Source: Acidimicrobiia bacterium
GTDB lineage: Bacteria > Actinomycetota > Acidimicrobiia > Spongiisociales > Spongiisociaceae
Direction of reading: 5' to 3'
Length of the DNA: 53,527 nt
Assembly: GCA_011523635.1 (NCBI GenBank)
Contig: WTGI01000060.1
Span: 1-53,527, forward strand
This document shows, in pieces, positions 46,186 to 49,758 of this stretch. Position 1 is the first letter of the stretch. Every line of letters begins with the position of its first letter. Made by a program: the position numbers and the translations under genes. The notes beneath the pieces were generated by a model. It was not told the origin of the DNA. It was given only the letters and a program-made list of their open reading frames with translations, and did not search any database.

Positions 46186-46455
46186 ATGCGGAGTTTCACC
46201 ATGTCCACCACACAACGCAACCAGGTGACGATACCCGGCGAGGTACGACACCATCTCGGCATCGAGCCGCGGGACAAGGTCTCGTTCACTATCGAAGACA
46301 ACGGTGCCGTCCGGCTCCGCAAGGCGCCGTTCACACTCGAGACGGCATACGGGTCGGTGAGGGCCCTGGATGACCATGGGGATCTCGAGGACATCATCCG
46401 GATGGCCAAGGAAGAGAAGGCGGCCGACCTGGTCGACGAGATGACCGGGTTGTGA
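46186..46455 (+). CDS. AbrB/SpoVT-type antitoxin
   Basis: An 89-residue swapped-hairpin AbrB antitoxin: TMSTTQRNQVTIPGEVRHHLGI and DKVSFTIEDNGAVRLRKA form the DNA-binding barrel, followed by an acidic helical tail that binds the toxin. ATG 46186 follows GGAGGACA. It overlaps the PIN toxin start by four bases (GTGA). Confidence 0.88.
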   Translation: MRSFTMSTTQRNQVTIPGEVRHHLGIEPRDKVSFTIEDNGAVRLRKAPFTLETAYGSVRALDDHGDLEDIIRMAKEEKAADLVDEMTGL

Positions 46456-46865
46456 GGTACCTGGACACCAACGTCATCATCCGGTATCTGACCAGGGACG
46501 ACGAGACGAAGGCGGCCGCCTGCTACCGGCTGTTCCAACGGGTGAGCAACGGGCGTGAGGAACTGACCACCTCGGTGGCCACCATCGCCGAGGCCACCTA
46601 CGTGCTGTCCTCCCAGCGCGGCCCTTACCGACTGCAGCCGGACGAAATCGCGGCGAGGCTCCATCCCATCGTGTCGCTACGAGGCCTGGTGATGCCTGAC
46701 AAGCGGGTGTGTATCCGAGCGCTGGACGTGTACGCCCAATACCCGTTCCTCGACTTCGCAGACGCTCTAGGGGTGGCCCATATGGAGGCCAAGGGGACCA
46801 CCGAGATTCTCAGCTACGACAGAGACTTCGACCGGCTTCCCGAAGTAGCGAGAGTCGAGCCCTAG
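46452..46865 (+). CDS. vapC: PIN-domain VapC-type toxin
   Basis: The 137-residue protein has the PIN catalytic acids: MRYLDTNVIIRYLTRDD, then VATIAEATYVLSS, LDFADALGVAHME and ILSYDRDFDRL. VapC toxins cut tRNA or rRNA. It is intact and paired with the AbrB antitoxin. Confidence 0.92.
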   Translation: MRYLDTNVIIRYLTRDDETKAAACYRLFQRVSNGREELTTSVATIAEATYVLSSQRGPYRLQPDEIAARLHPIVSLRGLVMPDKRVCIRALDVYAQYPFLDFADALGVAHMEAKGTTEILSYDRDFDRLPEVARVEP

Positions 46866-46924
46866 GGGAGGTGAGATCGGTACGCAGGCCGGCGGAGCTC
46901 TCGTGCGTTCTTGTGGGGGCGGGA

Positions 46925-47311
46925 CTAGCCGCGTAGCCGGACTCCCGGGACTGTACTGAGGTACTTTACGCTCTGTGGCGCGCGACCACCGGGATCCAAC
47001 ACCTCAAGAGGCACGGGCTCCGTGTAGCGCTTGACGGCTCCCACTTCGATTCCCACAGCTCGGATTGTGGTGCTGAAGTAGTCGAAGAAGTCCTGTCGGT
47101 CTATTCCAGCTACGCCGGCGAACCGGGCCCACAACTCCTCCGGAGTCCCGACAACCTGATTCTCAACATCGAACTCACCCTGAACAGCCTTGACAGGGGA
47201 TGTCACATACACGTACGCCTTCTGTATGTCGTTCGCAAGACGACGCTTACGGAATTCCACCTTCTTGGAACCATCCAGGATCGCATACGCGAAACGTGGT
47301 TTGATCGACAT
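46925..47311 (-). CDS. ASCH/PUA-like domain protein
   Basis: The 128-residue protein opens with MSIKPRFAYAILDGSKKVEFRKRRL, the diagnostic ASCH segment (GxKxxExR), followed by beta strands (AYVYVTSPVKAVQGEFDVE) and a helical region. ASCH and related PUA-fold domains bind RNA or modified nucleotides and occur in TA and coenzyme-modification systems. The ATG overlaps the stop of the upstream three-domain PIN-GNAT gene as TGATG, so the two products are probably made in fixed ratio. It could be the antidote or a specificity factor; nothing in the sequence decides this. Confidence 0.8.
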   Translation of the reverse strand: MSIKPRFAYAILDGSKKVEFRKRRLANDIQKAYVYVTSPVKAVQGEFDVENQVVGTPEELWARFAGVAGIDRQDFFDYFSTTIRAVGIEVGAVKRYTEPVPLEVLDPGGRAPQSVKYLSTVPGVRLRG

Positions 47312-48792
47312 CAGTACACAGCGTCCAGGTTGTCGCTTATCCACTTTAGGGCTCCTTTGTCGATGACCTTTTGGACTGTCTGTGGTGGACCCTTCAGGAC
47401 GTTGTTGTCGATCAAGGTGTGAAACGACCATGGCTCCGACAATAGTCGATCGTGGCGGAATAAGATGGCAAGCACAGACGTATTCCTGCAGAGCTGCCGG
47501 ATCTGCGAATCTGTGTAGACGGTTCGCTGCCCAACGAACTGTCTGATCACAGATGGATCAGTCGACCTGTAGAGGTCTTCGATCACGCCAATGGAAGTAA
47601 CGGCCCGCGCATCCTTTGATCGATAAAACAGAATGGTTGATCCTATAGTGAGGGTAGTGATCTTAGACCGAGTTAGGTAGGCCTTCAATATGGCGTTACC
47701 TGCGGCGGTGGTACCGAACATCCCATGCTGCCTACTCGCCTCTGGGAACAGCACACGGTGCCATCGCGGCTGTATTGGGATTACGAAGGGCTTACTCACG
47801 AGCACGGCGTATGGCCCAAAGCGCCGATTGAACTCAAGAGGATGAACGCTGGCGTCGTTACTCGTGGGGCAGAGATCCTTAACGAGAGCCATTTCACCAC
47901 GGCGCGTTCGTCGGCCAAGGTCACGAAACCCGAAGGCATCCAGCAGGAAGATCAGGTTTTCATGGCGTGGCAGCACCTCGACATACATCTTCTCGTAGTT
48001 CCCGCTGCGAGCATATCCGAATGTCGACTTCAGGAGAAGCTCACCCCGCTTGGTACCTACGGCGTGTTCGGCGACCTTGAAGGTACAGACCTTCAGGACC
48101 CTTCCCCCTATACCATGCGGTTGGTCCGTCTCGGTCTTCAGGATCGCGAGGCCTTCCATTCCCTCGGGAGAATCTCCGATGACAAGGCAATCGCGGTGCT
48201 CACGTTGGACCTTCTGCAGCCATACATCAAATCCGTTGTATTCAGACCGCAGTGACTCGAAGAGGGGATCATGGCTGTTCAACTGATAGCCCTTGAGTTG
48301 TCGTACGGTCGGAAAAGTGGTTGGTTCGTCGAACAGCCGCTCTAGGAGTTCGATTCCACCTTGGATGGTCATGACACGATTGCCGAGCCCTGCCCTCTCC
48401 GCATGTCCACGTAAGCGTTTGTCCTGACTGATCAGAAAGTCAGCCGCGTTGGAGTAGATCGCAGCAAGCATGTGAGAATCCACATCGTCGTTGGGAGAAT
48501 GGGGCTTCGTGTATCCGGCTCGTGAGATCAGCTCCTGCGGGACCTCGAGCGGATCGAGGATGCTCCACTGGCGCATTCGCAGGCGAGACGCCTCTCGGAG
48601 GCTTGAGCTACCTGTTCGGTCTATGTCTCGCTGGGTGGCTGCCGCTAGCCACACCTCACAACCGTGACGGTTGGCGAGCTCTAGTAACCGCGTTGCCCTG
48701 TCGGCATCTGGGTGCCGCCTCCTTGGGGAGATATCAACGCAGGCGTAGAAGACATTTGTATCGAATAGTAGGCGGGGCTGTAGATTATTCAT
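47311..48792 (-). CDS. Three-domain PIN-GNAT-EVE-like protein
   Basis: The 493-residue protein shows an N-terminal PIN nuclease domain (about 1-150): LLFDTNVFYACVD, AATQRDIDRT, the acidic NDDVDSHMLAA and FLISQDKRL. A GNAT acetyltransferase domain follows (about 185-305): CLVIGDSPEGMEGLAIL, a degenerate acetyl-CoA loop AEHAVGTKRGELLL, and YVEVLPRHENLIFLLDAFGF. The C-terminus (about 370-493) resembles EVE/PUA folds: IGSTILFYRSKDARAVTSIGV and RTVYTDSQIRQL. It is followed by the overlapping ASCH gene. Start ATG 48792 sits just behind a TAGATA/TACAGT zone with no ribosome site. Codon use is much less GC-biased than in the core genes. Confidence 0.8.
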   Translation of the reverse strand: MNNLQPRLLFDTNVFYACVDISPRRRHPDADRATRLLELANRHGCEVWLAAATQRDIDRTGSSSLREASRLRMRQWSILDPLEVPQELISRAGYTKPHSPNDDVDSHMLAAIYSNAADFLISQDKRLRGHAERAGLGNRVMTIQGGIELLERLFDEPTTFPTVRQLKGYQLNSHDPLFESLRSEYNGFDVWLQKVQREHRDCLVIGDSPEGMEGLAILKTETDQPHGIGGRVLKVCTFKVAEHAVGTKRGELLLKSTFGYARSGNYEKMYVEVLPRHENLIFLLDAFGFRDLGRRTRRGEMALVKDLCPTSNDASVHPLEFNRRFGPYAVLVSKPFVIPIQPRWHRVLFPEASRQHGMFGTTAAGNAILKAYLTRSKITTLTIGSTILFYRSKDARAVTSIGVIEDLYRSTDPSVIRQFVGQRTVYTDSQIRQLCRNTSVLAILFRHDRLLSEPWSFHTLIDNNVLKGPPQTVQKVIDKGALKWISDNLDAVY

Positions 48793-49128
48793 CGTATCTA
48801 CACTGTACAAACAAGGTGAATACACACATCAGCGAGCCGAAATCGGCAGCAGTGTTTCCGTCAATGGCGCATGCCCGGGACAGACCGCACTGGCCACTGC
48901 ACGAGTTTCTGAATGGTAGTCATACATGACACTAGAGAAGGTACCACAACCCAACGACAATTCATAGGTGTTGATCTGCTGAACGGCAACGCACGCGGCG
49001 GCGGAGAGTGCTACGTGAAGCTGGCCTAGGGTGGTTGCGCTGACCGCAGAACCCGACGCAACCGCCCATGCTTGACTGCTTTTCCTAGCCTTGTTTCGTG
49101 ACAAAGCGATCGCAGACGCCTGCCCATG
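48793..49128. other. Promoter region and gap between two divergent conflict modules
   Basis: These 336 bases separate the PIN-GNAT gene from the RHH-PIN pair. Open frames exist on the minus strand but have no start signal or protein pattern. I see nothing else in it. Confidence 0.4.
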
Positions 49129-49150
49129 CTGTAGCACGTCTGTGCTACAG
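49129..49150 (+). promoter_or_regulatory. Perfect 9-bp inverted repeat at the RHH-PIN promoter
   Basis: CTGTAGCAC (49129-49137) and GTGCTACAG (49142-49150) face each other across GTCT. TACAGT at 49146-49151, inside the right arm, is positioned like a -10 box nine bases before the ATG at 49160. This is the expected place for an RHH antitoxin to repress its own leaderless transcript. Confidence 0.8.
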
Positions 49151-49159
49151 TTCGTATGC

Positions 49160-49387
49160 ATGAGCACCACGACCGTTCGACTCAATGCGGACGACAGGGA
49201 GATCCTCGACGGGTTGGCGCCGTTGTTCGGAGGCAGATCCAACGCCATCCGACAAGCGCTACGCGCGCTGGCGGCTGACCGGAAGCGACACCTCGCCCTC
49301 GAGTCCTTCCTCGACGCGTGGACCGCCGAGGCCGGTCCGGTGGACGAGGAAGCGGTAGCAGCAATGGCGCGGCGCTACGGGCTGTGA
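49160..49387 (+). CDS. Ribbon-helix-helix antitoxin
   Basis: The 75-residue protein is a CopG/RHH antitoxin: STTTVRLNADDREILDGLAP, then GGRSNAIRQALRALAADRK. The acidic C-terminal helix (DEEAVAAMARRYGL) would bind the toxin. ATG 49160 follows the operator-promoter directly. The stop overlaps the next gene (GTGA). Confidence 0.88.
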   Translation: MSTTTVRLNADDREILDGLAPLFGGRSNAIRQALRALAADRKRHLALESFLDAWTAEAGPVDEEAVAAMARRYGL

Positions 49388-49758
49388 TCCTTGACGCCGG
49401 GGTGTTGATCTCGGTCGACCGCGGCGACGAATCCGCACGAGTCTTTCTCACGGCGGTCGCTCGCTCGGGTACACGGCTACATACCAGCCATCCGGTCGTA
49501 GCCCAGGTGCGGAGGGACGGTTCTCGCCAGGCCCGCCTGGCCGCTTTTCTCAAGACGGTCACGGTGCACTCGCTCGATGACGGTCCGTCGGTCGGCAGGC
49601 TTCTGGCGCTCTCTCGCTCGTCGGATGTCGTCGACGGCCATCTCGTCCACCTGGCCCTCCGGCTCGGTGATGACCTTCTGACCAGCGATCCGGACGATCT
49701 CACCAAGCTGGTTGCCGTACTCGGTCCAGCCGGACTGAGGGTTCACCGCTGGCAGTAA
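49384..49758 (+). CDS. vapC: PIN-domain toxin
   Basis: The 124-residue protein has PIN motifs VILDAGVLISVDRGD, TSHPVVAQVRRD, DVVDGHLVHLALRLGDDLLTSD. The first catalytic aspartate is present; the second acid position (usually E) in the PVVAQV segment is not acidic, as in several functional VapC variants. GTG 49384 overlaps the antitoxin stop. Confidence 0.85.
   Translation: MILDAGVLISVDRGDESARVFLTAVARSGTRLHTSHPVVAQVRRDGSRQARLAAFLKTVTVHSLDDGPSVGRLLALSRSSDVVDGHLVHLALRLGDDLLTSDPDDLTKLVAVLGPAGLRVHRWQ

Follow-up and report, generated by a model that had tools for sequence, protein, structure and literature searches.

A PIN-GNAT-EVE/ASCH gene pair of the PDC-M11 type in an Acidimicrobiia genome, a candidate toxin-antitoxin module

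Operons that join a (PIN)-GNAT-EVE protein to an ASCH protein, often with an AAA_17 gene and near type I restriction-modification (RM) genes, were described by Bell et al. 2020 (PMC7641849); the part of that paper available to us credits Iyer et al. 2013 for these operons and states that no module of these systems had been experimentally characterised at that time. Here we analyse one such pair at positions 46925-48792 of a 53,527-nucleotide stretch from an Acidimicrobiia bacterium (assembly GCA_011523635.1, contig WTGI01000060.1), hereafter the window. The PADLOC profile PDC-M11A matches the larger protein, the predicted toxin, with an E-value (E) of 6.6e-161 over residues 7-490 of 493 (profile 2-485 of 486), and PDC-M11B matches the ASCH protein of the adjacent gene (3e-39), so both PDC-M11 parts are present. 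We take PDC in PADLOC to denote a candidate system. The PHROG matches of the pair are 10674 (toxin, 7.8e-64) and 3136. In Escherichia phage PhiR47_2 (PV340567), a GNAT-EVE protein and an ASCH protein are annotated by the depositor as 'GevT toxin' and 'GevA antitoxin'; GevT matches PDC-M11A (2.1e-133) and GevA matches PDC-M11B (6.8e-52). Our literature search found no paper naming 'PDC-M11' and no test of the mechanism of the PIN-GNAT-EVE/ASCH pair.

The original prediction, made from the sequence alone, called the locus a candidate new conflict system. The conflict-system part of that claim holds; novelty does not, since Bell et al. 2020, PDC-M11 and GevT/GevA precede it, and the system is already catalogued as a candidate phage-defence pair. 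To this we add a count of the near-constant pairing, natural deletions of the toxin, an empty site, a connection with the structurally solved protein ZmASCH, and a four-domain variant. We read (PIN)-GNAT-EVE/ASCH, which is PDC-M11 and GevT/GevA, as a toxin-antitoxin (TA)-type (abortive-infection) module with a probability of roughly 0.6; the products of the cassette are probably a toxin of three domains that attacks RNA, and a small antidote. Its toxicity, neutralisation, substrate, trigger and phage protection are what we infer from the observations below.

Pairing of the two genes and natural loss of the toxin

The two genes form a minus-strand unit encoding 493 and 128 residues (Table 1), joined by a TGATG stop/start overlap, and the original prediction had placed and coupled them in the same way. 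The comparison covered 99 loci (L-numbers; genomes carry G-numbers): the 80 best of 221 relatives in genome_contigs, all nine matched in viral_contigs, nine phage or plasmid loci chosen by hand among 46 matching phage and plasmid records, and the window itself, with PhiR47_2 outside the 99. The viral contigs were reached by an alignment query, which matched nine; the window protein alone matched no close relatives there. An ASCH gene lies adjacent to the toxin gene on the same strand in 96 of the 99 loci, at 85% or more coverage of an ASCH profile built from eight sequences, of which seven come from the 99 loci themselves. In the other three (L043, L099, L105) the toxin's 3' end coincides with the end of the contig. 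The pairing of the two genes is near-obligate, and no toxin homologue with examined flanks lacked ASCH, contig-edge loci aside. The commonest other neighbour cluster, HsdM, occurs in 18 of the 99 loci, a comparison with other clusters and not with random neighbours; clusters were named from one Pfam-scanned member each, and several loci end early at contig ends.

The pair is found in both archaea and bacteria, and in plasmids and prophages. Gene order varies (toxin first in 69 loci, ASCH first in 27) while the pairing stays constant, which argues for a toxin-antitoxin relationship. Fusions of ASCH to a helix-turn-helix (HTH) domain in 14 loci, some of them near-identical viral contigs (Pfam on L037, the others by similarity to it), resemble autoregulating antitoxins and are therefore counted on the same side. 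ASCH is fused to AAA_17 in L085, and an AAA_17 gene lies no more than about 2.6 kb away in 26 of the 99 loci. Co-divergence of toxin and ASCH was rejected as proof of contact, because a correlation such as the Mantel r of 0.858 is to be expected under joint inheritance (permutation maximum 0.081, 89 loci); the nearest neighbours of the two proteins agree in only 49 of these 89 loci.

The distribution of the two genes points in the same direction. Among phage records, all 15 matches of the toxin query fall within the 29 matches of the ASCH query, leaving 14 with ASCH only (thresholds differed between the queries and duplicates are included), and in four of these 14 the toxin profile matched nothing in the stretches examined. 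In Escherichia coli, GevT and GevA are each found in 274 of 5426 genomes. Such nesting and equal counts support the toxin-antitoxin reading, as do the PDC-M11 match together with the depositor's names, and the setting in a TA island, near type I RM genes (HsdM or HsdR near 22 of the 99 loci), and in prophages and plasmids. Among 60 listed of the 274 E. coli places, GevT is damaged in two, one with IS1 inside and one covering 54%, and GevA covers at least 80% in all 274. Two orphan ASCH genes of Gram-positive phages, in Javan523 (L132) and an Oenococcus phage (L133), stand near an annotated DNA modification methylase, in Javan523 close to terminase genes; an anti-toxin or regulatory role is possible for them.

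Mobility and natural toxin loss were observed among close relatives. The three-domain toxin is present in one of ten genomes of the genus, the window's own. Congener G298 has an empty site: the counterparts of window positions 46861 and 49130 are separated by 87 bp there, flanked by the same two PIN genes. Congener G300 retains an intact ASCH reading frame (synonymous divergence, dS, 0.152; nonsynonymous divergence, dN, 0.043; dN/dS 0.28); of its toxin gene, only the terminal ~131 bp remain, with a one-base deletion. The toxin's place (L169 4639-5720) is taken by two genes. One is HEPN-like (Pfam HEPN 0.0079, below cut-off); the other by appearance encodes an MNT nucleotidyltransferase and has no Pfam hit. 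From these sequences, it looks as if one TA-like pair gave way to another at this position of the island.

The same pattern recurs elsewhere. Phage psiM2 matches psiM100 apart from a gap whose end lies within the toxin gene, and the last ~44 codons of this gene are kept; the psiM100 record calls the region 'inserted fragment IFa', and we rejected insertion in favour of the simpler deletion in psiM2, since these ~44 codons remain there. In G112 (L004/L137) the PIN part survives as far as profile position ~114, as do the final ~46 toxin codons, beside an intact ASCH gene. G509 holds a degraded copy of the four-domain form, followed ~0.5 kb on by an ASCH gene that is still readable. Loss of the toxin with ASCH kept, in G300, psiM2, G112 and G509, counts in favour of the toxin-antitoxin reading. 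Three separate deletions stop 44-46 codons before the toxin's end, which suggests that its 3' end may carry signals for ASCH expression. Interrupted toxins with complete ASCH genes were also found in L094, L112, L117 and L129 (single stops or shifts, draft contigs), and the reverse case, a broken ASCH gene beside a whole toxin, was not seen among the eight breaks.

Toxin domains, the ASCH partner and a four-domain variant

The reading of the larger protein as PIN, GNAT and EVE domains was borne out, each by different evidence. PF13470 (PIN_3) matches it at 26.9 bits (E 9.2e-6), just short of the cut-off of 27, and the Pfam scan of the window toxin matched neither GNAT nor EVE. The AlphaFold model (56 sequences; predicted local distance difference test, pLDDT, 92.6; predicted template modelling score, pTM, 0.91) superposes on solved GNATs with a best Z of 17.0 (2.2 Å, 138 residues, model range 159-308), which settles the structure-prediction test in favour of the GNAT fold. 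The matches listed for the full model were filled by GNATs, and the PIN and EVE calls rest on sequence, not on structure comparison. For EVE, PF01878 was detected by Pfam in 15 of 56 full-length relatives and EVE in 21 of 32 C-terminal regions of relatives (E up to 0.1), and the EVE profile aligns with the ASCH profile (hhalign probability 89, E 2.3e-6) in an alignment that reaches a common PPQ motif. Sequence searches of the PDB returned no match for the EVE region and one chance-level row only for the PIN region. A Foldseek search against viral models was set aside: the 50 matches listed of 936 were mostly acetyltransferase-like, and none of those listed was named PIN-GNAT-EVE.

Residue conservation was scored in 91 uninterrupted toxins of 440-620 residues, the window included (8 of the 99 loci were dropped for length or interruption). 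The PIN acidic residues D11, D105 and D124 are present in all 91, and D102 in 82. In the GNAT domain, K234 and E251 are present in 91, G246 and G250 in 90, and K248 in 74 (R in 16); in the EVE domain, G365, N366, Y372 and R423 are invariant.

Identification of the second protein as ASCH is borne out as well. Pfam gave no significant match for the window protein itself (E 0.12) and detected ASCH in 51 of 58 relatives. Its model (pLDDT 91.0) has as closest structure ZmASCH (Z 17.2, 2.0 Å, 127 residues, 32% identity), which itself matches the ASCH profile at E 1.5e-32. According to the part of Kim et al. 2017 (PMC5615036) available to us, ZmASCH binds nucleic acid and weakly cleaves single-stranded RNA, with contributions from Y47, K53 and S128. 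The window residues Y35, K41 and S114 occupy these positions, and across the 58 ASCH partners the Tyr is kept in 58, the Ser in 57 and the Lys in 22 (Arg in 7). A toxin was expected beside ZmASCH and looked for: in four Zymomonas-like genomes (L226-L229; a 100% match and relatives at 90, 78 and 62%), no toxin was detected within ~5 kb. ZmASCH is perhaps a domesticated antitoxin. Similar-sized genes neighbour it in all four related genomes.

ASCH matches without a classical toxin led to a variant of ~680-715 residues that begins with an additional GNAT and continues with a PIN-like domain, a second GNAT that lacks GxKxGE, and an EVE-like end. Full-length copies were found in 11 loci: L183, L184 (G308), L186 (G298), L207, L208, L209, L211 (Calothrix), L212 (Nostoc), L213 (Prevotella), L230 and L231. 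Two further loci are cut by the contig (L185) or decayed (L210), and G308 holds three copies, L185 among them. An ASCH gene follows directly downstream on the same strand in the 11 full-length loci and in L185. By eye, the N-terminal GNAT keeps [RQ]xxGx[GA] in nine of the 11, L213 and L230 each differing at one position; the PIN acidic residues are less regular, above all in the cyanobacterial pair. Pfam on L184 and L186 recognised the N-terminal GNAT only, the other three domains being assigned by alignment to the three-domain family, and PDC-M11A matches these two weakly or partially (1.8e-12 and 2.8e-7). Should an acetyltransferase indeed have been gained as the inner GNAT decayed, acetylation would be a needed activity. 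The words 'GNAT-PIN' and 'four-domain' are absent from Bell et al. 2020 (PMC7641849), and in the literature accessible to our search no description of the variant was found.

The surroundings agree with the original prediction on two more counts. The module lies in a TA island with PemK/MazF, MazE/PrlF-like plus PIN, a second PIN gene (below cut-off) and Phd/YefM genes, identified by Pfam; and its fraction of guanine plus cytosine, 0.553 in the toxin gene and 0.571 in the ASCH gene, is below the 0.662 of the whole window. The edge of the inserted segment holds a palindrome, TGTAGCAC-n-GTGCTACA (window 49127-49148), which immediately precedes the PIN gene pair on the right and may be an operator of that pair. 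A scan for promoters and terminators gave results at or below chance level.

Table 1 Features of the PIN-GNAT-EVE/ASCH module and its flanks in the window.
Feature	Position	Strand	Details
PIN-GNAT-EVE protein, predicted toxin/effector, 493 residues	47311..48792	-	ATG at 48792, stop 47313-47311
PIN domain, about residues 1-155	48328..48792	-	Acidic residues D11, D102, D105, D124
GNAT domain, residues 159-309	47866..48318	-	Variant acetyl-CoA loop GxKxGE at 246-251
EVE/PUA-like domain, about residues 325-493	47314..47820	-	GNxIxK, conserved R423, C-terminal PPQ motif
ASCH protein, predicted antitoxin/partner, 128 residues	46925..47311	-	ATG at 47311
TGATG stop/start overlap, predicted translational coupling	47309..47313	-	Read from sequence
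Last ~44 toxin codons	47312..47442	-	Sole toxin-gene remnant in congener G300, frameshifted there
Inserted segment with module	46862..49129	n/a	~87 bp (empty site) in congener G298
Flanking MazE/PrlF-like antitoxin (46192-46455) and PIN toxin (46452-46865)	46192..46865	+	Neighbour, outside module
Right flanking PIN gene	49318..49758	+	PIN 21.2 bits, below cut-off; neighbour, outside module

Proposed mechanism and alternative readings

In the toxin-antitoxin reading, the EVE domain would select the target, an RNA or tRNA, perhaps through a modified base; acetylation of this target by the GNAT domain and/or its cleavage by the PIN domain would then stop translation. The co-translated ASCH protein would bind the toxin or the toxin's nucleic-acid ligand and keep the toxin in check until ASCH is lost or titrated during infection, which would free the toxin.

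Several observations weigh against this reading. All eight breaks fall in the toxin gene, which is not significant given that it makes up 79% of the coding length (p ~0.16), and half of these breaks, all in draft contigs, consist of no more than one stop or frameshift. The ASCH gene of G300 has a dN (0.043) above that of trpB (0.008) and similar to that of a neighbouring PIN gene (0.033), and its retention may be merely recent. The psiM2 ASCH protein matches psiM100 at 95.7% over residues 1-117 of 129, and its tail, the last ~10 residues, is altered. In a sample of the phylum, 8 of 296 genomes match PDC-M11B; three have a full toxin and G112 a remnant, and in the other four, two of which are weak or partial matches, no toxin was detected beside ASCH. 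ASCH without a detectable toxin in cells, here and in the Zymomonas-like genomes, points to some other role of ASCH. Finally, the names GevT and GevA are a depositor's annotation for which our literature search found no paper; the accessible part of PMC13190303 mentions only phage PhiR47.1.

The fusions of ASCH to HsdS suggest another arrangement, in which ASCH would be a sensor or tether tying the effector to an RM complex, and a phage disabling RM would fire the effector; PrrC-like logic is the model for this. Such fusions occur in seven loci, all with HsdM and/or HsdR genes (Pfam on L062, the others by similarity); ASCH sits at the HsdS N-terminus in these loci (L062, L066, L096, L106, L110, L111, L117), which are archaeal and mostly methanogen. 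Besides the type I genes counted above, any of four RM clusters is found near 31 of the 99 loci, and among the four-domain loci L184 and L186 come after a type ISP RM gene (Pfam Type_ISP_C) and the Calothrix locus after an annotated cytosine methylase and an Eco29kI-type nuclease. Against this stand the 68 of 99 loci, the window included, that have none of the four clusters within ~7 kb, some of them cut short, and we regard RM tethering as a tentative, on balance unlikely account.

ASCH is a PUA-fold relative of the toxin's EVE reader, and both end in PPQ. The pair might instead form an acetylation-based RNA-targeting guard, ASCH being a decoy or sensor that competes with EVE for the same nucleic-acid mark. 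A phage that alters the mark, or that blocks the restriction system to which ASCH is joined in the HsdS fusions, would release the effector. If this were true, the added, intact-looking acetyltransferase of the four-domain form would mark acetylation as indispensable. We find this version decidedly doubtful.

A role in base modification, with the GNAT domain acetylating a DNA base as a mark that ASCH and EVE read, goes back to Iyer et al. 2013 as cited in the available part of Bell et al. 2020 (PMC7641849). PUA-fold readers and RM neighbourhoods fit it, and so do four rhizobial loci (L035, L036, L073, L084) with a second, convergent ASCH gene just downstream on the minus strand that bears a YqfB-like K-x-x-T-x-R motif. 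The PIN residues D11, D105 and D124, however, point to RNA by their full conservation, and the main ASCH protein carries Glu at the position of the YqfB nucleophile; the idea is very unlikely.

The comparison with YqfB also bears on whether ASCH could be an enzymatic antitoxin, a deacetylase that removes what GNAT adds. YqfB is, in the accessible text of PMC6972931, an N4-acetylcytidine (ac4C) amidohydrolase with Thr24 as nucleophile, inactive as T24A. ASCH shares its fold (9kyf, Z 9.8), and the equivalents of its Lys and Arg, K16 and R21, are kept in 58 of 58 partners; but with the positions Lys21, Thr24 and Arg26 compared (spacing K21-T24-R26), the Thr-Lys-Glu triad plus Arg fails in the window protein at Thr, and Glu stands there in 58 of 58. 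This residue check weakened the idea, which we now hold highly improbable. It is extremely unlikely that the role of PIN-GNAT-EVE is instead to break down the acetylated aminoacyl-tRNAs that phage GNAT-EVE toxins produce, as argued in the available part of Bell et al. 2020 (PMC7641849): GNAT-EVE without PIN does occur in prophages, but the form with PIN itself shows strong conservation of the GNAT residues.

For the toxin-antitoxin reading as for the others, the G300 deletion, the G298 empty site, the resemblance to ZmASCH and the four-domain variant are handles on the identity of the toxin, on acetylation versus cleavage, and on the target of ASCH.

Comparison with known systems

At the level of single proteins, ZmASCH (ZMO0922; PDB 5guq, 5gus, 5y6b, 5y6c) belongs to the same ASCH family as the window protein but stands alone, with no toxin gene within ~5 kb, whereas the window ASCH is paired. 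YqfB has a fold in common with the window ASCH over 92 residues (2.2 Å) at 15% identity, the site Lys and Arg being common to both. At the level of the operon, the systems of Bell et al. 2020 (PMC7641849), as far as the available text describes them, share with the window the domain order PIN, GNAT, EVE, the ASCH partner and the defence setting. They differ in that an AAA_17 gene is often present and type I RM is frequent nearby; no AAA_17 gene was found adjoining the window module and no type I RM within ~7 kb of it. GevT/GevA of PhiR47_2 belong to the same families as the window pair, with overlapping genes in both, but GevT is without a PIN domain and lies in a lambdoid prophage beside cI, while the window toxin has PIN. 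With PADLOC PDC-M11 no difference was found: both window proteins are full-length matches encoded by two adjacent genes. Collectively, the module has the two overlapping, co-oriented genes and the mobile setting of type II toxin-antitoxin systems.

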